A DNA stretch of 54,671 nt. Origin: an uncultured Oscillospiraceae bacterium (GTDB lineage Bacteria; Bacillota; Clostridia; Oscillospirales; Oscillospiraceae). The position numbers and the translations under genes were made by a program. The notes under the pieces were generated by a model, which made no database searches, was not told where the DNA came from, and was given only the letters and a program-made list of their open reading frames with translations. Within the stretch, counting starts at the first letter, position 1; every line of letters starts with the position of its first letter. This document shows positions 3,558 through 12,767 of the stretch, piece by piece. The stretch spans positions 1 to 54,671 of the forward strand of contig CATKZW010000019.1 of assembly GCA_949841465.1 (NCBI GenBank), given 5' to 3'.

Positions 3558-4739
3558 TCACAGAGCCATGCGATAGATGGCGGCCATGTCCGCCTCATAC
3601 AGCACCTTGGCCGTTCCCTTTTTCCCTCCGGCACCCCGGGCGCAGGAGGCCGCCATGGCCAGAATCTGCTCTTCGGTGGGCTCTACGCCCAGCTCCTTCA
3701 GGGTGACGGGCATATGGATGGAACGGAAGAAATCCTCCAGGGCGGCGATGCCCGCCAGGGCGGTTTCCCCATCGTCGGCTTTGGGCGTGACGTCCATCAC
3801 ATTGACGGCGAATTGGACAAACCGGGACAGACAGTCCCTGTACACATACCGGGCCCAGCTGGGCCACACGGCGGACAGCCCCGCGCCGTGGGTCACGTCA
3901 AACATGCCGCCCAGCTCGTGCTCCAGGCCGTGAGAGACGAAGTCCATGCCGTCTGCGCCCAGGCCGGTGAGGTCGTTGTGGGACAGGGAGCTGGCCCACA
4001 TCACCTCCGCACGGGCCTCGTAGTTGGCGGGGTCGTCCTGGAGAATGAGGGCATTTTTCATCACCGTGCGCAGCAGACCCTCGGCGATGCGGTCAGTGAG
4101 TTCCATATTGCCGCCCTGGGTGAAGTAACGCTCCAGGGTGTGCATCATGATGTCGGTGCAGCCCGCCGCCGTCTGGTAGGCGGGCAGGGTGGCAGTCAGC
4201 TCAGGGTTCATGATGGCCAGCTTGAGCCGGCACAGATTGTTGCGGCAGCCCCGCTTTTCCCCGGTTTCTTCGTTGGTGATGACGCTGCTGTTGCTCATCT
4301 CGCTGCCCGCGGCCGCGATGGTGAGCACGCAGGCCACAGGGAAGCAGGCTTTTGCCGTACGCTTTTGGGCGTACAGGTCCCATACGTCATATTCCGGCTC
4401 CGCCAGGGCGTAGGCGATGGCCTTGGATGAGTCGATGACCGAGCCGCCGCCTACGGCTAGAATCAGCTCCGCGCCGAATTGACGGGCCAGCTCCGTGCCC
4501 TCCCGCACCTTGGACAGCCTGGGGTTGGGCACCACGCCGCCCAGCTGGGTGTGGGCGATGCCCGCCTCATCCAGGCTGGCAGCCACCCGGTCCAGCAGGC
4601 CGGAGCGAACAACGCTCCCGCCGCCGTAGTGGATGAGCACCCGGCTCACGCCCAGCTCTTTAAGCAGCCGGCCGGTGCGGGCCTCCACGCCCCGTCCAAA
4701 GACCACGCGGGTGGGAGCAAAAAATTCAAAATCAAACAT
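3558..4739 (-). CDS. Iron-containing alcohol dehydrogenase
   Basis: A 393-aa group III (Fe-ADH) dehydrogenase. The N-terminal NAD(P) domain shows VVFGRGVEARTG and GGGSVIDSSKAIA; the C-terminal domain carries metal-ligand regions (D...M..H in TDIMMHTLE, and HGLEHELGGMFDVTHGAGL with the family His residues). The similarity is to the YqdH/BDH (butanol dehydrogenase-like) subgroup that reduces aldehydes. The chosen ATG follows TAGGAGGTATTCTG, an ideal ribosome site; an upstream ATG at 4772 would add 11 unlikely residues. A good divergent promoter lies upstream at 4787-4814. Confidence 0.94.
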   Translation of the reverse strand: MFDFEFFAPTRVVFGRGVEARTGRLLKELGVSRVLIHYGGGSVVRSGLLDRVAASLDEAGIAHTQLGGVVPNPRLSKVREGTELARQFGAELILAVGGGSVIDSSKAIAYALAEPEYDVWDLYAQKRTAKACFPVACVLTIAAAGSEMSNSSVITNEETGEKRGCRNNLCRLKLAIMNPELTATLPAYQTAAGCTDIMMHTLERYFTQGGNMELTDRIAEGLLRTVMKNALILQDDPANYEARAEVMWASSLSHNDLTGLGADGMDFVSHGLEHELGGMFDVTHGAGLSAVWPSWARYVYRDCLSRFVQFAVNVMDVTPKADDGETALAGIAALEDFFRSIHMPVTLKELGVEPTEEQILAMAASCARGAGGKKGTAKVLYEADMAAIYRMAL

Positions 4740-4786
4740 CAGAATACCTCCTATGGGGTGTCTGCCCCGCATTTTGCATGAATATC

Positions 4787-4814
4787 ATTATAAACGATTT
4801 CCTGCTGTTGGCAA
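4787..4814 (-). promoter_or_regulatory. Promoter of the alcohol dehydrogenase operon
   Basis: On the minus strand TTGCCA, a 16-bp spacer and a perfect TATAAT, ending 47 bp before the start codon. Confidence 0.75.
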
Positions 4815-4870
4815 GTCCTTTTTCATGAGAGCTGAAAAACAAGTAAGTTTCCACTTTGAACATTTTAGGC

Positions 4871-4899
4871 GTGACTTTTCTTTGCCGCTGTGGTATATT
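4871..4899 (+). promoter_or_regulatory. Candidate promoter of the DUF3842 gene
   Basis: GTGACT (4 of 6 consensus), a 17-bp spacer and TATATT (5 of 6), 32 bp before the ATG of the DUF3842 gene; it is divergent from the alcohol dehydrogenase promoter. Confidence 0.5.
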
Positions 4900-4931
4900 T
4901 GGAAAAGACTGAGTATAGGACAGGTGAACGC

Positions 4932-5378
4932 ATGAACATCCTTGTGATCGATGCCCAGGGCGGCGGCATCGGCAGGCAGCTGGTGGCCGCTGTGAAAAAA
5001 ATGTTCCCCGACGATACCGTCACAGCGGTGGGCACCAATAGCCTGGCCGCCTCCGCCATGCTGAAGGCCGGGGCGGATTTCGTGGCCACGGGGGAGAACG
5101 CCGTGGTGGTGAACTGCCGCAGGGCGGACGTCATTGTGGCCCCCATCGGGGCAGTCATTGCCGACGCCATGCTGGGGGAGATCACTCCGGCCATGGCACT
5201 GGCGGCGGGGCAGAGCCCGGCGAAGCGCATTCTGCTGCCTATCGCCCACTGTGACAATATGGTGGTGGGCACAAAGGATTTGAGCATGGGCCAGCTGGTG
5301 CAGGAGGCGGTGGAGCGGCTGAGAGAGATCCGCAGGGGGTGCGAAGCAAAACAAAACACCGGTGGACAAATAAGATAA
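4932..5378 (+). CDS. DUF3842 family protein
   Basis: A 148-aa protein matching the DUF3842 pattern: MNILVIDAQGGGIGRQLV at the N-terminus (a Rossmann-like beta-strand with a glycine-rich loop), GTNSLAASAMLKAGA, and ILLPIAHCDNMVVG with a conserved Cys. The fold suggests nucleotide or cofactor binding, but the function of the family is unknown. The start was placed at the ATG where homology begins, 9 bp after an AGG ribosome site; an upstream in-frame ATG at 4890 has no support. The nucleotidyltransferase gene starts 17 bp downstream, so an operon is likely. Confidence 0.88.
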   Translation: MNILVIDAQGGGIGRQLVAAVKKMFPDDTVTAVGTNSLAASAMLKAGADFVATGENAVVVNCRRADVIVAPIGAVIADAMLGEITPAMALAAGQSPAKRILLPIAHCDNMVVGTKDLSMGQLVQEAVERLREIRRGCEAKQNTGGQIR

Positions 5379-5395
5379 AAAAGGAGAGATGTGTG

Positions 5396-6313
5396 ATGAA
5401 CAAGCCCGTTCTGGTTATCATGGCGGCGGGTATGGGCAGCCGGTACGGCGGCCTCAAGCAGCTGGATCCGGTGGGCCGGCACGACCAGGTGATTTTGGAC
5501 TACTCCATCTATGACGCCCGCCGGGCGGGGTTTGAGACGGTGGTATTTGTCATCAAAGAGGAGATTGAGGAGGAGTTCAAGGTCCGGGTGGGCAGGCGCG
5601 TGGAACGGCACATGGACGTGAAGTACGTTTTCCAGCGCAGGGATGATCTGCCGGAGGGCTACACGGTTCCCGAGGGGCGGGTGAAGCCCTGGGGGACGGC
5701 TCAGGCAGCGCTGGCGGCGCGGAATGTGGTGAGCGGTCCCTTTGCCATTATCAACGCCGATGACTACTATGGTCCGGAAGCATACCGGAAAATCTATGAT
5801 TACCTGTCGAATAACCGGCCTTATCACTATGCCATGGTGGGCTATCGCCTGAGAAATACAGTGACAGAGAACGGTTCCGTGGCTCGGGGTGTGTGCAATG
5901 TGGACGAGGATGGAACCTTAATCGACATACACGAGCGCACTGCCATTGAGAAGGACGGGGACAATGCCCGCTATACCGAGGACGGCGGCCGGAGCTGGAC
6001 GGCGCTTCCCGGTGGGACGCTGGTGTCCATGAACATGTGGGGCTTTGACCGCAGCTTTTTGGATGAGGCAGGAGATCGTTTCCCTGCGTTCCTGGACAAG
6101 GCCCTGGCGGAAAACCCGCTGAAGGGGGAGTATTTCCTGCCCAGCGTGGTGGATCAGCTGATTCGGGAGGGGAAGGCCCAGGTACAGGTGCTGCTCAGCG
6201 AGGACAAATGGTATGGCATCACCTACCGGGAGGACAAGCCCACTGTCACCGCCGCCGTCGCGGCCATGACGGAGGCAGGGCTGTATCCGGACGAGCTGTG
6301 GCCGGGGCAGTGA
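5396..6313 (+). CDS. Sugar-phosphate nucleotidyltransferase
   Basis: A 305-aa nucleotidyltransferase. It has the signature VIMAAGMGSRYGGLKQLDPVG (residues 6-26, glycine-rich NTP loop and catalytic Lys), INADDYYG (metal-binding Asp) and a WGTAQA contact. This subgroup resembles dTDP-glucose/UDP-glucose-type pyrophosphorylases but lacks the beta-helix tail. It may make an NDP-sugar for surface glycans; the nucleotide and sugar are not known. The ATG at 5396 follows AAGGAGAGATGTGTG. The aldose epimerase gene follows 19 bp later, consistent with a sugar-metabolism operon. Confidence 0.88.
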   Translation: MNKPVLVIMAAGMGSRYGGLKQLDPVGRHDQVILDYSIYDARRAGFETVVFVIKEEIEEEFKVRVGRRVERHMDVKYVFQRRDDLPEGYTVPEGRVKPWGTAQAALAARNVVSGPFAIINADDYYGPEAYRKIYDYLSNNRPYHYAMVGYRLRNTVTENGSVARGVCNVDEDGTLIDIHERTAIEKDGDNARYTEDGGRSWTALPGGTLVSMNMWGFDRSFLDEAGDRFPAFLDKALAENPLKGEYFLPSVVDQLIREGKAQVQVLLSEDKWYGITYREDKPTVTAAVAAMTEAGLYPDELWPGQ

Positions 6314-6332: not shown

Positions 6333-7214
6333 ATGAGAGTTGAATTGAAACGAGGCGCATATTCCGCCGCTGTGGATACCAAGGGTGGGGAGCTGGTTTC
6401 CGTTCGAGATGGGCAGGGTGTGGAGTATATCTGGCAGGGAGATCCCAAATCCTGGCCAGGGCAGAACCCAAACCTGTTTCCCATTGTGGGGAATCTGAAA
6501 GGCGGACAGGTGACCATCAACGGGAAAACCTGTGAGATGGCCCGGCACGGCTTTGCCCGACGCAGTGAGTTTACCGTGACGGAGCGGGGAGAGGACTACG
6601 TGGTGATGGAGCTGCGGGACACCCCGGAGACGCTGGCGTGTTACCCCTATCATTTTGTGCTCCGGGTGCGGCATCAGCTGGTGGAAAATGGATTTTGCAC
6701 CCGGTTTGAGGTGCAGAACCCCGGCGGGGTGGACCTGCTGTTCTGCGTGGGAGCCCACACCGGTATCAATTGTCCGTTGGAGGCGGGAAAGCGGTTTGAA
6801 GACTACCGGCTGGTGTTTGACCAGACGGAGGATATCAAGGCCATGATCCCCACAGCCCAGGGGCTGCTGTCCGCCGGGCGGTACGGCCCTGCGCTGGAGA
6901 ATACCGAGACGCTTCCTCTGGACCACGCTGTGTTTGACCGGGTGGACACCCTGATCTTTGAGGGACTGCGCTCCAAAGGGGTCACCCTGCGGCACAGGGA
7001 CGGGGGCAGGGAGGTCCGCATGGAATTTGGTGAGTTCCCCATGATTGCCTTCTGGACCGCGCCAAACGCCGGCGCCCCCTACATCTGCCTGGAGCCCTGG
7101 CACGGCTGTGCCGCCTACGAGGAGGAGAGCGGCGAGTTTGCCGGTAAAGCCCACGTGATCCGGCTGGCTCCCGGCGGGGAAAAACAGTTAAGCTATACCG
7201 TGACCGTGGGGTGA
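6333..7214 (+). CDS. Aldose 1-epimerase family protein
   Basis: A 293-aa galactose-mutarotase-like beta-sandwich protein of the LacX/YeaD-like branch. Visible landmarks are YIWQGDPKSWPGQNPNLFPIVG, the active-site region ARHGFARRSEF (His and Arg) and the late CLEPWHG with the Glu that usually acts as general base. These enzymes interconvert alpha and beta anomers of aldoses or hexose-6-phosphates. It follows the nucleotidyltransferase by 19 bp, and the RidA gene follows by 47 bp. The exact sugar is not predictable. Confidence 0.9.
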   Translation: MRVELKRGAYSAAVDTKGGELVSVRDGQGVEYIWQGDPKSWPGQNPNLFPIVGNLKGGQVTINGKTCEMARHGFARRSEFTVTERGEDYVVMELRDTPETLACYPYHFVLRVRHQLVENGFCTRFEVQNPGGVDLLFCVGAHTGINCPLEAGKRFEDYRLVFDQTEDIKAMIPTAQGLLSAGRYGPALENTETLPLDHAVFDRVDTLIFEGLRSKGVTLRHRDGGREVRMEFGEFPMIAFWTAPNAGAPYICLEPWHGCAAYEEESGEFAGKAHVIRLAPGGEKQLSYTVTVG

Positions 7215-7261
7215 GCGGCCTTTCCACCGCCTCAATAGTTCAAAAAAGGAGAACGATCACC

Positions 7262-7639
7262 ATGAATAAAGCCATTCACACTGATAACGCCCCCGCCGCC
7301 ATCGGCCCTTATTCCCAGGCGGTCCGGTGGGGCAATACCGTCTATGTGTCCGGGCAGCTCCCTATCGACCCCGCCACCGGTGCTTTCGCCGGGGAGGATA
7401 TCGCGGCCCAGACCCGCCAATCCCTCACCAACATCAAAAATATTCTGGCGGCGGAGGGGCTGGATATGTCCCATGTGGTCAAGACCACCGTCATGCTCAA
7501 GGACATTGCCGATTTTGCCGCCATGAACGAGGTGTACGCCGAGTTTTTCGCCGCGCCCTATCCCGCCCGGGCCGCCTATCAGGTGGCCGCGCTGCCCAAG
7601 GATGCGCGGGTGGAAATCGAGTGCATCGCCGCCTTTTAA
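7262..7639 (+). CDS. ridA: RidA family reactive intermediate deaminase
   Basis: A 125-aa RidA/YjgF/UK114 protein with the complete family pattern: APAAIGPYSQAVRWGN at the start, VYVSGQLPIDP, TRQSLTNIKNILAAEG, and the C-terminal PARAAYQVAALPKDARVEIECIA including the arginine of the carboxylate-binding site. Enzymatically it hydrolyses 2-aminoacrylate and related enamines released by PLP enzymes such as threonine dehydratase. The ATG follows AAAAGGAG. The next ORF overlaps or abuts its 3' end. Confidence 0.96.
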   Translation: MNKAIHTDNAPAAIGPYSQAVRWGNTVYVSGQLPIDPATGAFAGEDIAAQTRQSLTNIKNILAAEGLDMSHVVKTTVMLKDIADFAAMNEVYAEFFAAPYPARAAYQVAALPKDARVEIECIAAF

Positions 7640-7643
7640 GCGG

Positions 7644-7898
7644 GTGGAACGGCTGACAGACCTGCCCAATATCGGTCCGGTGCTGGCAGGGAATCTGGAG
7701 AAGATCGGCGTGGCTGGGGCGGATCAGCTCCGTGAGCTGGGGGCGGAGGAGGCGTTTGTGCGCATCCGCGCCCAGGTTGATCCAACCGCCTGCCTCCACC
7801 AGCTGGAGGCTCTGGCGGGAGCGGTAGAAGGGGTCAGGAAAAATCTGCTGCCTTCAGAACGCAAGGCGGAGCTGAGGGCGTGGTTTAAGAATCTGTGA
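7644..7898 (+). CDS. TfoX C-terminal domain protein
   Basis: A short protein (84 aa from GTG 7644) corresponding to the stand-alone TfoX/Sxy C-terminal domain: LTDLPNIGPVLAGNLEKIGV is a helix-hairpin-helix-like element, followed by GADQLRELGAEEAFVRI and a helical tail. The N-terminal TfoX half is absent, as in many Firmicute homologues. Function is unknown; the fold suggests nucleic-acid contact. The start is uncertain: an ATG at 7602 lies inside ridA and would add 14 non-homologous residues, while the GTG sits right before the conserved region. It lies between ridA and tgt on one strand. Confidence 0.75.
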   Translation: MERLTDLPNIGPVLAGNLEKIGVAGADQLRELGAEEAFVRIRAQVDPTACLHQLEALAGAVEGVRKNLLPSERKAELRAWFKNL

Positions 7899-7909
7899 GG
7901 GAGGACGCG

Positions 7910-9043
7910 ATGTTTCGAGTGGTCAAAACCGAGGGCAGTGCCCGTCGGGGGGAGTTCACCTGCCCCCATGGCGTGGTGCAGACCCCGGTGTTTATGAATG
8001 TGGGCACTCAAGGGGCCATCAAGGGCGCCCTGTCCGCTTTTGATTTGAAGGAAATCGGCTGCCAGATCGAGCTGTCCAACACCTACCACCTCCACCTGCG
8101 CCCCGGTGACAATGTGGTGCGGGAGATGGGCGGGCTGCATAAGTTCATGCGGTGGGATGGGCCCATGCTCACCGACTCCGGCGGATTCCAGGTGTTCTCC
8201 CTGGCTGGTCTGCGGAAGATCACCGAGGAGGGGGTCACCTTTTCCTCCCACATCGACGGCAGGCGCATCTTTATGGGGCCGGAGGAGTCCATGCGCATCC
8301 AGTCCAACCTGGGCAGCGACGTGGCCATGGCATTTGACGAGTGCGTGGAGAATCCCGCGCCCTACGACTATGCCAAAGCCTCCTGTGAACGGACCCTGCG
8401 CTGGCTGGAGCGTTGCGCGGCGGAGCATGACAAGCTGAATGCCTTGCCAGACTGTGTCAACCCGGGGCAGATGCTGTTCGGTATCAACCAAGGGGCCACC
8501 TACGAGGATCTGCGGGTGTGGCATATGAAGGAGACAGCTAAGATCGACTGCGGGGGCTATGCCATCGGCGGCCTGGCGGTGGGGGAGCCCACCGAGGTGA
8601 TGTACCGAATCATTGAGGCGGTGGAGCCCCACATGCCCGCAGACAAGCCCCGGTATCTCATGGGCGTGGGTACGCCGTCCAACATCATCGAGGGCGTGGC
8701 CCGAGGGATCGACTTTTTTGACTGTGTCATGCCCGCCCGCAACGCCCGCCATGGCAAGCTGTTCACCTGGGAGGGGACGCTGAACATCAAAAACGAGCGC
8801 TTCAAGCTGGATGAGCGGCCCATTGACCCTGGCTGTGACTGCCCGGTGTGCCGGAATTTCTCCCGGGCGTATCTGCGCCACCTGTTTGTGGCGGGGGAGA
8901 TGCTGGCCATGCGGCTGGCGGTGATGCACAACCTGTATTTCTATAATGAGCTGGTCAGGCGCATACGAGATGCCCTGGATGTGGGACAGTTCGCTGCTTT
9001 CCGGTCGGAATATTCGGAGAAACTGTCCGGCAGAGCGGAGTAA
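7910..9043 (+). CDS. tgt: Queuine tRNA-ribosyltransferase
   Basis: A 377-aa TGT TIM-barrel enzyme that exchanges guanine-34 in GUN-anticodon tRNAs for a queuosine precursor (preQ1 in bacteria). Visible are DSGGFQVFSL (catalytic base Asp), the substrate pocket FDECVE and GGYAIGGLAVGEP, the nucleophile region IDFFDCVMPARNARHG, and the zinc site CDCPVC...H near residues 305-335. Length is usual. The ATG follows GAGGGAGGACGCG. No queuosine synthesis genes (queA, queC-F) are in the window. It ends before a strong hairpin and is convergent with desulfoferrodoxin. Confidence 0.98.
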   Translation: MFRVVKTEGSARRGEFTCPHGVVQTPVFMNVGTQGAIKGALSAFDLKEIGCQIELSNTYHLHLRPGDNVVREMGGLHKFMRWDGPMLTDSGGFQVFSLAGLRKITEEGVTFSSHIDGRRIFMGPEESMRIQSNLGSDVAMAFDECVENPAPYDYAKASCERTLRWLERCAAEHDKLNALPDCVNPGQMLFGINQGATYEDLRVWHMKETAKIDCGGYAIGGLAVGEPTEVMYRIIEAVEPHMPADKPRYLMGVGTPSNIIEGVARGIDFFDCVMPARNARHGKLFTWEGTLNIKNERFKLDERPIDPGCDCPVCRNFSRAYLRHLFVAGEMLAMRLAVMHNLYFYNELVRRIRDALDVGQFAAFRSEYSEKLSGRAE

Positions 9044-9676: not shown

Positions 9677-9763
9677 CGATTTGATCTCAGCAGACGTCCA
9701 TGGGAAATCCTCACTGTTTAGAACATCCAAATAGTGGATATTCTTGCTGCGGAGGGGATGCAG

Positions 9764-9931
9764 GTGAAGTTCAGGTATTTCGATCCAGAAGGCCGCCCAA
9801 TTGCTCCGGAGCAGCTGCGTGCGATGCAGATCATGACGCCAGCGATGGACCATGTCTTTGTGACGGTATTGGAGCGCCTGGAAAAAAGTGAAAATTTGAA
9901 AAGCCCAATTGAAAAAGCCAAACTGAAATGA
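9764..9931 (+). CDS. Small hypothetical protein upstream of recombinase
   Basis: A 55-aa ORF (KFRYFDPEGRPIAPEQLRAM...), basic at its C-terminus. I do not recognise the family. The GTG at 9764 was chosen because GGAGGGG lies 8 bp upstream; alternatives are ATG 9758 (too close to that site) and GTG 9734. It ends 56 bp before the recombinase and is on the same strand, so it may be part of the same element, for example an excision or regulatory factor, but that is inference. The sequence looks like coherent protein rather than random translation, with a beta-strand then helices. Confidence 0.5.
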   Translation: MKFRYFDPEGRPIAPEQLRAMQIMTPAMDHVFVTVLERLEKSENLKSPIEKAKLK

Positions 9932-9987
9932 TATGATGAAACCATGGCTTCGCGGCCGGGGCTGATTTTGTTGATTGGAGGTACTAT

Positions 9988-11406
9988 GTGAGTAAATCAA
10001 AAATGTTTCAGCCGCTGGAAACTGTCAGTGAGCTGACGCTGGCCCTTTACCGCCGCGTATCGACAGACAAACAGGCCGATGAGGGATATTCTCTGGACGT
10101 TCAGCAGGAAAAACTCCAAGCGTACGCCAAAACGTTTTCCAATGTAAGGGAAGTGCGGGATTATATGGACGACGGCTACTCCGGCAGCAGTCTGGACCGC
10201 CCGGGGATCGGGCGTTTGATGAAGGACATTCAGGCCGGCGAGATTACGCACGTGATCGTGGTAAAGCTGGACCGTCTGAGCAGAAGCCAGAAGGATACGC
10301 TGCACTTGATTGAAGACGTGATGATCCCGGCAAACGTGGCGTTCATCTCCATCATGGAGAGCTTCAACACCGACACCGCATTCGGAAGGGCGATGGTGGG
10401 CATTCTGTCCGTGTTTGCTCAGCTGGAACGGGAAAATATTTTCGAACGCACCCGCGGCGGTATGCAGAAACGGGTGGAGAAGGGCTACTGGCCCGGCGGG
10501 GGGCGGACGCCTTACGGTTATGACTATGACCCTGCGAGGGGGATTTTAGTCCCCAACGAGCAGGCGGAAATGGTCCGTTATATCTACGACCGCTATCTTG
10601 CCGGTGTATCCATGCAGACCATTGCGGACAACCTTGATTTAAAGTATGAAAAGCTGGTCTATAACATCATCACCCGAAAATCCAACGCAGGCTATATTGT
10701 CTACAAGGGGGAGGAGTACAAGGGCCTTCACGAGCCTATTGTTTCTCTGGATACCTATGACCGCGCCATGGAGCTCCTGGCGGAGCGCTCCGCAGCCAAG
10801 CTGGTGACCAAAACCAGTCATCTGCTCACGGGACTGTGCCGCTGTGGGACCTGTGGGGCGAGGATGCGGTACATGAAGTGGGGGAAAACTGGGTATAAAC
10901 TGGTGTGCTACTCCCAGCAGCGCAGCAAAAAATACCTGGTGCGCGACCCGGACTGTGACGGGCCCTCCCCCTTTGCCGAGGATGTGGAGGAGGGCGTGGT
11001 GGGCGCCCTGTTTGCGGCCTCCAAAGAGAGGCTGGAAAACGCCCGCAAATCTGTGGAGTCAGGTAGTTTGACCGGTATGCTCCAGGAGCAGCTTCAGCGG
11101 GCGGAGGCAAAGCTCCGCCGCCTGTACAGTCTGTACGGCGACAGCGGAGATGACTACCTGTTGGATGCGATCCACGATGCGAAAGAGGATATTGACCGTC
11201 TAAATGGAACGCTCAGAGAGGAGCGCACAAAGGGAGCGTCCACCCAGTCCGCCATGAATGCCTATGAAAAACTGGAGAGTATTCAGGACGCTTGGCCGTA
11301 TATGTCTGTTCAGGAGCGGCGGGTAGTTCTGGTTTCCGTTGTGGAAAGCGTTACAATTTCCGGCGATTACACCGATGTAAAGCTGAAATTTGGACTGTCT
11401 GCATAA
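9988..11406 (+). CDS. Large serine recombinase
   Basis: A 472-aa large serine recombinase. The resolvase catalytic domain spans about 18-160 with the nucleophile Ser25 in YRRVSTDKQADEGYSL, and the arginine-bearing segments DGYSGSSLDRPGI and KLDRLSRSQKDTLHL. A recombinase domain follows (GYWPGGGRTPYGYDYD), then a zinc ribbon (CRCGTCGARM...CYS) and a coiled coil near 355-440 with the VSVVESVTISGD tail. It starts at GTG after TTGGAGGTACTAT. Such enzymes integrate and excise elements at short att sites, usually located next to their own gene. Here the stop codon is about 27 bp from the point where sigG homology starts, so sigG is very likely the target. Nothing suggests that the enzyme is inactive. 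Confidence 0.97.
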   Translation: MSKSKMFQPLETVSELTLALYRRVSTDKQADEGYSLDVQQEKLQAYAKTFSNVREVRDYMDDGYSGSSLDRPGIGRLMKDIQAGEITHVIVVKLDRLSRSQKDTLHLIEDVMIPANVAFISIMESFNTDTAFGRAMVGILSVFAQLERENIFERTRGGMQKRVEKGYWPGGGRTPYGYDYDPARGILVPNEQAEMVRYIYDRYLAGVSMQTIADNLDLKYEKLVYNIITRKSNAGYIVYKGEEYKGLHEPIVSLDTYDRAMELLAERSAAKLVTKTSHLLTGLCRCGTCGARMRYMKWGKTGYKLVCYSQQRSKKYLVRDPDCDGPSPFAEDVEEGVVGALFAASKERLENARKSVESGSLTGMLQEQLQRAEAKLRRLYSLYGDSGDDYLLDAIHDAKEDIDRLNGTLREERTKGASTQSAMNAYEKLESIQDAWPYMSVQERRVVLVSVVESVTISGDYTDVKLKFGLSA

Positions 11407-11440
11407 CAAAAACTTGGTTTCAACTTCGGAACGCTGTGCC
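11407..11440 (+). other. Probable recombination junction (att) within sigG
   Basis: The interval between the recombinase stop and the first sigG-like codons (GCT GTG CCG ATG at 11433). To its right the sequence encodes AVPMIVGEIRRYL, to its left the translation no longer resembles SigG (expected NVRFSTY or similar). This marks the crossover zone to within some tens of bases; the core dinucleotide cannot be defined without the other junction. Confidence 0.55.
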
Positions 11441-11927
11441 GATGATTGTGGGAGAAATTCGCCGTTATCTCCGGGACAACAGTGCGATCCGGGTTTCTCG
11501 GTCGGTGCGGGACACCGCCTACCGGGTGCTTCAGGCGAAGGAGAAGTATATGGCCGAGCATCAGAAGGAGCCCACGGTGGACGAGATTGCCCAGATCCTG
11601 GAGTTGCGCAGGGAAGACGTGGTGATGGCGTTGGACGCAGTGGTAGACCCGGTGTCGTTATTTGAGCCGGTGTACTCCGATGGCGGGGACACAGTGTGCG
11701 TTATGGACCAGGTGCGGGACAAGAAGAACACCGACGAGGCCTGGCTGGAGCACATTGCCCTGGGGGACGCCATCAGCAAGCTGGATGAGCGGGAGCGGCG
11801 CATCCTTGCTCTGCGCTTTTTTCAGGGTAAGACGCAGATGGAGGTATCCGCCGAGGTGGGGATTTCCCAGGCGCAGGTATCGCGACTGGAAAAAAATGCA
11901 CTGAACCGAATACGAAAAGAGCTGTAA
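11433..11927 (+). pseudogene. sigG: 3' fragment of sporulation sigma factor SigG
   Basis: This stretch encodes the last ~164 residues of a forespore sigma factor. AVPMIVGEIRRYLRDN, IRVSRSVRDTAYR, DPVSLFEPVYSDGGD and FFQGKTQMEVSAEVGISQAQ match SigG best. Sigma regions 3 and 4 (with the helix-turn-helix that reads -35 elements) are present. Missing are the N-terminal core-binding and -10-reading parts, about 115 residues in SigG. The open frame runs back into the recombinase gene (possible ATG at 11292), but that part is unrelated to sigma factors. No 5' half is found on either strand of the window. Therefore it is either the 3' half of a gene that is rejoined after excision of the recombinase element, or a dead remnant. 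The downstream terminator is intact and the coding frame has no lesions, which suggests recent or regulated interruption. Confidence 0.9.
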
Positions 11928-11951
11928 AGTGAAAGCCGTATACACAAAAGA

Positions 11952-11990
11952 CCCCGCAAACCTTTTTGTGGATTTGCGGGGAACTTTTTC
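11952..11990 (+). terminator. Terminator after sigG fragment
   Basis: CCCCGCAAA / TTTGCGGGG stem with a 12-base loop and a T-rich tail (AACTTTTTC), between the convergent sigG fragment and EFR1 gene; it may work in both directions. Confidence 0.85.
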
Positions 11991-11993
11991 AAA

Positions 11994-12767
11994 TCACTTT
12001 AACAGATACTTTTCCACACAGCCTTGTTCAATTACTTTTTTGCCCAGTAGGGTAATAGCTTGTGTGGGGCACCTGTTGGCACAGCGGTAGCACATAGTAC
12101 ACTGTGTCCCTGGTGCTGCGTGTTTTTTATCCATGTTCAGAGAGAGGTTACTCATGGGACACAGCTGTACACATTGCCCGCATCCGACACATTTTGCGAT
12201 ATTGATTTTCAGCTTGTCAGAATAACTTCTGGTTTTATTGTAGAAATAGAGGCGTTGACCGAATAGTCCTATAAAATGAGAAAGTGGTCCAAGCCCCTCC
12301 TGAGGAGGCGTTCCCCTGATGAAAGCATTTGCCGCACAGTTTATTTTCAGTTCCGCTTGTCTGACGAGTTGTTGATTTTTGCTCAACGACCTCTTCAACA
12401 TGGGTTCGTCACAAATGCTGTCAGGCATTTTTATGTGAAGGCCGCCGGTTATAACAGCGTCGTATCTGCGAAGCAGGCGGGCCAGCACCCCGGCGCCGTC
12501 CCCGCTGAACAGCCCCATAGTGGCGATCACAAATATTCGCTTTCTGCACCATAGTTGGTCATTTGCAGCCACAAAATCACGCAGCATTTTCGGCAGGTTA
12601 CTGTATTGGACAGGGTATCCGATCACCAACTCCTGATGCTTCTGGATTTCGTGCGCGGCATCTGGGCTTTCAATGGAAATTGCTTTAGCATCTGGGCTGT
12701 ATTGACGCAAAAACAGTTCTACACAGTATCTTGAATTTCCTGTGCCGCTGAAATAAATTCCGAGCAT
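11994..12767 (-). CDS. EFR1 family ferrodoxin (flavodoxin + 2[4Fe-4S])
   Basis: A 257-aa protein with an N-terminal flavodoxin-like domain, where YFSGTGNSRYC (residues 5-15) is the FMN phosphate loop, and a C-terminal bacterial ferredoxin pair: CVGCGQCVQLCP and CTMCYRCANRCP, eight cysteines for two [4Fe-4S] clusters. This EFR1 architecture is common in anaerobic Firmicutes and is assumed to carry electrons in the cytoplasm; the partner is unknown. The ATG follows GGAGGCACAAACT. Base composition is lower in GC than its neighbours, which hints at a different origin. Confidence 0.93.
   Translation of the reverse strand: MLGIYFSGTGNSRYCVELFLRQYSPDAKAISIESPDAAHEIQKHQELVIGYPVQYSNLPKMLRDFVAANDQLWCRKRIFVIATMGLFSGDGAGVLARLLRRYDAVITGGLHIKMPDSICDEPMLKRSLSKNQQLVRQAELKINCAANAFIRGTPPQEGLGPLSHFIGLFGQRLYFYNKTRSYSDKLKINIAKCVGCGQCVQLCPMSNLSLNMDKKHAAPGTQCTMCYRCANRCPTQAITLLGKKVIEQGCVEKYLLK

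Follow-up and report, generated by a model that had tools for sequence, protein, structure and literature searches.

The forespore sigma factor gene sigG of the source genome (G000) is broken into two open halves, and the 3' half lies directly behind the gene of a large serine recombinase (LSR). SigK acts in the mother cell, which is terminal, and SigG acts in the forespore. We consider it likely that sigG represents a skin-like split sigma gene, which would be rejoined in the forespore and split again by the LSR alone after germination. On the sequence evidence, the position of an LSR beside a broken sigG is not a matter of chance, since the same break codon recurs across many species. A preliminary description of this DNA had placed a skin-type LSR within sigG, and this reading is borne out in part: a 5' half is present, joining leaves the frame open and the same state recurs across genera. 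The source genome comprises 136 contigs (92.87% complete, 0.6% contaminated), and the window, that is, the whole stretch analyzed, is its contig C19 of 54,671 b. Coordinates are collected in Table 1; gene names without a family search were assigned by eye.

Table 1. Features of the split sigG locus (window coordinates unless another contig is named)
Feature	Position	Strand	Basis
SigF-like (forespore) promoter motif GTTTA-N15-GGATATTC	9716..9743	+	aligned in five species; upstream of small ORF
Small ORF, 57 aa, candidate recombination directionality factor	9758..9931	+	profile search, position, conservation
Sigma-A-like promoter TTGAAA-N17-TATGAT for LSR alone	9909..9937	+	pattern scan; predicted
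Large serine recombinase, 472 aa	9988..11406	+	Pfam PF00239, PF07508, PF13408; PHROG integrase 2e-111
attR-like junction	11417..11460	+	arm GTTTCAACTTCGGAA, inferred CC core 11439-11440, then sigG half-site
sigG 3' half	11439..11927	+	TIGR02850 (spore_sigG) model positions 90-253, E 5.2e-77
sigG 5' half	C4:96298-96579	-	TIGR02850 model positions 2-95

The two halves of sigG and their junctions

Similarity to sigG begins at 11430, ~ 24 b past the LSR stop codon (TAA), and the frame stays open without break to its stop, in line with the earlier view of a lesion-free 3' half directly after the LSR (gap then given as ~ 27 b). At E <= 0.001 the TIGR02850 model matches nothing else in the window, which agrees with the reported absence of a 5' half there; a genome-wide search located this half on contig C4. 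No intact sigG was found by the TIGR02850 search of the genome. Further matches in G000 score lower (E 2.7e-50 and above) and probably represent other sporulation sigma factors. The 3' half is 97% identical to the intact sigG of the relative G037. Of the terminator that was thought to be kept behind it, a GC-rich inverted repeat at 11952-11981, past the stop codon, is present; the terminator scan assigns this repeat to the minus strand only, and its three calls in the region stand against a shuffle mean of 2.5.

Intact relatives such as G023 and G037 display the order sigE-sigG-(EFR1)-tsf, with EFR1 seen in G023. In the source genome, the EFR1-tsf side stays with the 3' half, and the 5' half adjoins smc. 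Contig C4 reads sigE(+), an ECF sigma gene, a copper-amine-oxidase N-terminal-domain gene, orf195(-), the sigG 5' half(-) and smc(+). The alternative of a large rearrangement, raised in the preliminary description, is supported in so far as the halves lie on separate contigs with neighbors (smc; tgt) unlike those of intact relatives. Orienting C4 against C19 by the gene order of relatives failed, as the neighbors are too rearranged. C19 was also considered as a circular contig and rejected, its ends overlapping neither one another nor the ends of C4.

The recombinase is assigned to the large serine recombinases by its three domains (Resolvase, Recombinase and Zn ribbon) together with RVST within ALYRRVSTDKQ, which we take to be the catalytic-serine motif. 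Six LSR peptide patterns gave no match in viral contigs. Matches were obtained to 982 phage records, all below 60% identity (best 44% among the 10 matches listed), and to at least 5000 plasmid records, with all 5000 counted below 60% identity. The record MT839977.1 (“Bacteriophage sp.”, L243) carries an LSR beside a sigG 3' half at 3933-5846 and is, hence, probably a bacterial contig.

The arm GTTTCAACTTCGGAA of the window junction repeats, in inverted orientation, the arm found on C4 at the junction of the 5' half, and the outer arms of both junctions are inverted repeats about the dinucleotide CC. In sigG sense, with a slash at the break, the 5' half terminates ..GGGGTGCC/GATGGATTTCCGAAGTTGAAAC and the 3' half opens GTTTCAACTTCGGAACGCTGTGCC/GATGATTGTGGG. 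This arm symmetry would fit, as expected, attL and attR sites derived from a palindromic attP. The break point falls in the proline codon of GVP/M, Pro-96 in the numbering of G037. CC stands on both sides of the junction in all 22 genomes with both halves; since the proline codon always starts with CC and a few further bases are shared in some species, the exact crossover is only inferred, from the arm symmetry.

When the halves are joined at this codon, an open full-length sigG results in 22/22 genomes, with a length of 256-259 aa except in G437 (274 aa, with a different C-terminus). The 22 are G000, G034, G228, G426, G221, G152, G212, G044, G261, G300, G433, G435, G421 and G436-G444; not counted are G336, G368, G434, G087 and G092, in which only the 3' half was seen, and G063, G158, G213 and G045. 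Both halves in one genome, attL/attR-like junctions and an open in-frame join are the features of a skin-type split. No rejoined version was found among the assemblies examined. In 15 genomes, the att arms match those of their own species at 12.7 of 18 positions versus 9.2 across species. Within genus g4 (seven genomes), the pairing has a permutation p of ~ 0.005; the G000-like group shows no such effect (p = 1.0), and the trend runs opposite in g23, where own arms score 9 versus 11 for each other's.

Recurrence, layout and selection among relatives

Among 42 genomes of the genus, 37 carry a full-length sigG, two a split one (G000 and G034) and three neither (G027, G029 and G039, whose assemblies are 69-76% complete). 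The closer relatives G023 and G040 have an intact sigG and no such LSR. A close LSR (E <= 1e-60) occurs in G000 and G034 only, at 86% identity; three further matches in the genus reach 34-39%, including one to another gene of G000 itself. In an even sample of 150 family genomes, 133 have a sigG match at E <= 1e-58 and 17 do not, and in 13 of the 150 the sole such match is a 3' half starting at model position 79-93. Comparison of the locus in relatives, as the preliminary description had advised, thus reveals the same split at the same codon in many species and an intact gene in G023, G037 and G040.

Relatives of the LSR at E <= 1e-130 are present in 14 of 400 family genomes, G000 included. A sigG half has an LSR within 5 kb at 23 of 25 loci (10 of 12 from GTDB contigs plus 15 others, with L114 and L115 left out), or in 22 of 24 distinct genomes, as L104 repeats L051. 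In 20 of these 23 loci the LSR precedes the 3' half and is co-directional with it, and in three it is convergent with the 5' half. No LSR was seen in the short loci L094 (G396) and L099 (G152); the halves of G152 lie farther away. In g4, the 3' half was detected in 10/11 genomes. Two of its members, G433 and G435, carry an additional intact sigG unlike their halves. It was rejected as a joined state, given no blastn match to the halves in G433 and 74-79% matches, 106 b of them in sigG, in G435, and looks like another organism's copy as judged from these comparisons.

The layout of the halves differs between species. In four genomes they lie on one contig as direct repeats, 6,714 b (G228), 6,448 b (G426), 6,419 b (G221) and 25,230 b (G152) apart. 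The split in these genomes is an ordinary 6.4-25 kb direct insertion, with the halves flanking one direct-repeat element as in skin; this is not the case in G034. Here, sigE and the sigG 5' half lie on contig C25, and tsf, the sigG 3' half and the LSR on contig C10; the two contigs share an overlap of exactly 55 b. This 55-mer is present nowhere else in the genome besides the two contig ends, so the contigs are very likely adjacent and the sites very likely inverted, ~ 65 kb apart. Rejoining between inverted sites would be a lossless inversion. The earlier expectation that excision would be permanent is therefore not upheld for G034: its sites appear inverted, no DNA would be lost on rejoining, and a renewed split by the LSR alone would be expected. 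In g4, the halves lie on different contigs, in G212 at least 144 kb apart by contig positions, and the same holds for the nine genomes G436-G444. By eye, the 25-kb element of G152 (L149-L150, C10:23500-54500) contains a Cas-like operon, a long repeat array and a relaxase-like gene. In G034 (L040), two further serine-recombinase-like ORFs at 6755-8194 and 11231-12637 flank the 3' half and the LSR.

Raw pN/pS ratios, which are rough because synonymous divergence is near saturation, amount to 0.057 (5' half) and 0.041 (3' half) between G000 and G034, and to 0.02-0.12 and 0.05-0.14, respectively, for seven g4 pairs. For intact sigG they are 0.01-0.05 (G037, G011 and G022 each versus G023) and 0.10-0.14 (G019-G023). 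Pairs among G436-G438 reach 0.30-0.54, which counts against a functional reading or reflects faster evolution; the altered C-terminus in the 3' half of G437 also counts against it. In four g4 species the order of ORFs before the LSR is alike by eye, and LSR divergence is in step with that of sigG, indicating that the split is probably ancestral in g4. Low pN/pS there then speaks for function. The closer relatives of G000 are intact, so its split may be recent and its low ratio may predate the split, which makes this ratio not informative.

These data bear on the alternative that a mobile element used the sigG site as attB and a later rearrangement killed the gene, leaving strains that no longer sporulate. 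The patchy spread of the split (the two genus genomes and 13 family genomes above) would suit such a history, as would the many genomes with halves on different contigs and the raised ratios among G436-G438. The LSRs of G436 and G437 are 92% identical while their sigG halves are 75% and 56% identical, indicating that the LSR module moves, which points the same way. Nevertheless, both halves are open in all 22 genomes, purifying selection acts across g4 despite the near-saturated synonymous divergence, and the att arms co-vary there. Compact elements of similar size also persist in two g23 species, and the small ORF described below has a forespore-type promoter motif ahead of it. We regard a dead sigG as unlikely overall. 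As for the dead disruption that the preliminary description had put forward, it is improbable in g4, where the halves are under purifying selection, but may still apply to G000 itself.

The candidate directionality factor and the putative promoters

A functional, skin-like split would call on the small ORF ahead of the LSR as candidate directionality factor. A profile seeded with G000 and G034 was run on 28 genomes; it recognized this ORF in 16 (domain E < 1e-3) and gave weak matches (E 0.06-0.15) in three more, a total of 19. In 19/19, the ORF is on the strand of the LSR, and its end ranges from 115 b short of the LSR start to an overlap of 14 b. A similar ORF was recognized by eye in G426 and G221, and none was found in the remaining 7/28 (G092, G421 and five distant genomes). 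The ORF has no Pfam or PHROG match, and its best hit among solved structures is not significant (E 0.35); its predicted structure, of low confidence (mean pLDDT 73.9, pTM 0.39), is mostly helical.

The SigF consensus reads GYWTA, about 15 bases, GGNNANANT. The motif GTTTA-N15-GG is shared at the same place before the small ORF in the five closest species. The unloosened consensus matches 5 of the 19 upstream regions, G000 being without a match. A loosened pattern (GYWTR, 13-16, GGNNAN[AT]), devised after the five closest species had been seen, matches 15/19, including G000 and, outside those five, 10 of the other 14, nine of them g4 congeners. By comparison, 300 shuffles averaged 0.86 matches per 19 regions and never exceeded 4, and 25 of 450 upstream regions used as controls matched. 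The loose pattern is absent before the small ORF in G228, G396, G152 and G087, and in G034 its match sits in a shifted register. A motif of this type is also sigG's own promoter in 7/15 genomes scanned.

A sigma-A-like box, TTGAAR-N17-TATRAT, occupies the same position before the LSR in 5/5 close species. In the window alone, this pattern has one match versus a shuffle mean of 1.7, i.e. no excess. The box is not conserved in g4, where a looser pattern matches in three of five species at differing positions. A GC-rich inverted repeat was seen by eye between small ORF and LSR in g4 (L152, L154, L156 and L158).

The presence of a sigma-A-like promoter immediately ahead of the LSR in five species, along with the inverted layout, would also suit a rejoining that takes place in the mother cell or, at random, in vegetative cells, the latter as a phase variation in which a sigG ON minority is spore-competent, rather than a forespore-triggered event. 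Against this stand the SigF-like motif that precedes the small ORF and the behavior of the C. difficile skin LSR, which is reported to carry out attP x attB recombination alone and to require its directionality factor for the reverse (PMC5025042). Taken together, we consider this alternative improbable.

A second candidate for the factor, orf195 (P0004), follows the 5' half in G000, G436, G437 and G438. It was set aside as directionality factor, with only a weak 35% fragment in G152, no occurrence seen between 5' half and tsf in G034 and no gene of this name at four labelled g4 5'-half loci; given its patchy presence, it is an accessory candidate only. In G436 and G437 (L218, L216), orf195 is fused in frame with the sigG 5' half, so that the sigG promoter would drive its expression up to the point of rejoining.

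Proposed mechanism and relation to known systems

Rejoining of a skin-like split in the forespore can be outlined as follows. Site-specific recombination by the LSR would have split sigG at the Pro-96 codon. In vegetative cells the gene would be kept split (attL/attR) as the default of the LSR alone, probably expressed from the sigma-A-type promoter. After asymmetric division, forespore SigF would transcribe small ORF and LSR, and the small protein, acting as putative directionality factor, would promote attL x attR recombination and thereby rejoin sigG in frame. SigG would then be produced in the forespore. With direct-repeat sites (the 6.4-25 kb insertions) a circle would be released, and with inverted sites (G034, ~ 65 kb) the segment would flip without loss. 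In the germinated cell, the LSR without its partner would presumably split sigG again, and we infer the same operation for G000 itself. That the split in the window is an artefact of assembly or binning is highly improbable: the halves are indeed on separate contigs of a genome in 136 pieces, but neither contig stops at its junction, both have matching att arms there, and many other genomes show the same junction, four of them with the halves on a single contig.

The genes tsf and rpsB are essential. As a tentative extension of the forespore-rejoining model, the system might form a self-resetting germline switch, in which a SigF-driven factor and the LSR would, in the forespore, invert a large chromosomal segment with essential genes (~ 65 kb in G034) and so complete sigG with no loss of DNA, and the sigma-A-driven LSR alone would flip it back in the germinated cell. 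The genome inherited through each spore would then be rearranged and restored in every generation.

By analogy, the skin element of C. difficile would be the closest model: as in skin of sigK in Bacillus subtilis and Clostridioides difficile, a sporulation sigma gene is split by an LSR element and rejoined, and in C. difficile the LSR is described as constitutive, its directionality factor as mother-cell-specific, and the LSR as able to invert DNA between inverted attP and attB (PMC5025042). Unlike in skin, the target here is sigG of the forespore with a forespore-type promoter motif, whereas sigK works in the terminal mother cell, and some split-sigG species lack a single compact element between the halves. 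In size, the small ORF resembles the 58-aa partner of the LSR in the SPbeta prophage within spsM (sprA/sprB), where the timing of the partner is reported to govern rejoining; SPbeta differs as an active prophage with a mother-cell promoter (PMC4191935). The gin element in gerE of Bacillus cereus is likewise described as a non-phage intervening element with serine recombinases, but it has three of them and gerE is a mother-cell regulator (PMC5595907). The yin element of Clostridium botulinum also lies within a sporulation gene, yet it is prophage-like and its target yabG encodes a protease (PMC10747680). No report of a split sigG was found among the matches listed in the open-licence PMC literature.

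The cited sporulation rearrangements occur in the mother cell, where loss of DNA is harmless because the cell dies. A split sigG puts the rearrangement into the inherited cell, and it must, therefore, be reversible or lossless. The sequences suggest how this could be achieved: through sites in inverted orientation, a directionality factor driven in the forespore and, in some species, expression of the LSR alone from a vegetative promoter. Surveys that filter genes by length or score could report sigG as missing from such gut Clostridia and class them as non-sporulating, although the gene is there in two pieces. Two odd partial sigG matches, in G171 (C69:11663-12283, model positions 48-254) and G176 (C68:18534-18929, 2-133), possibly represent other break points.
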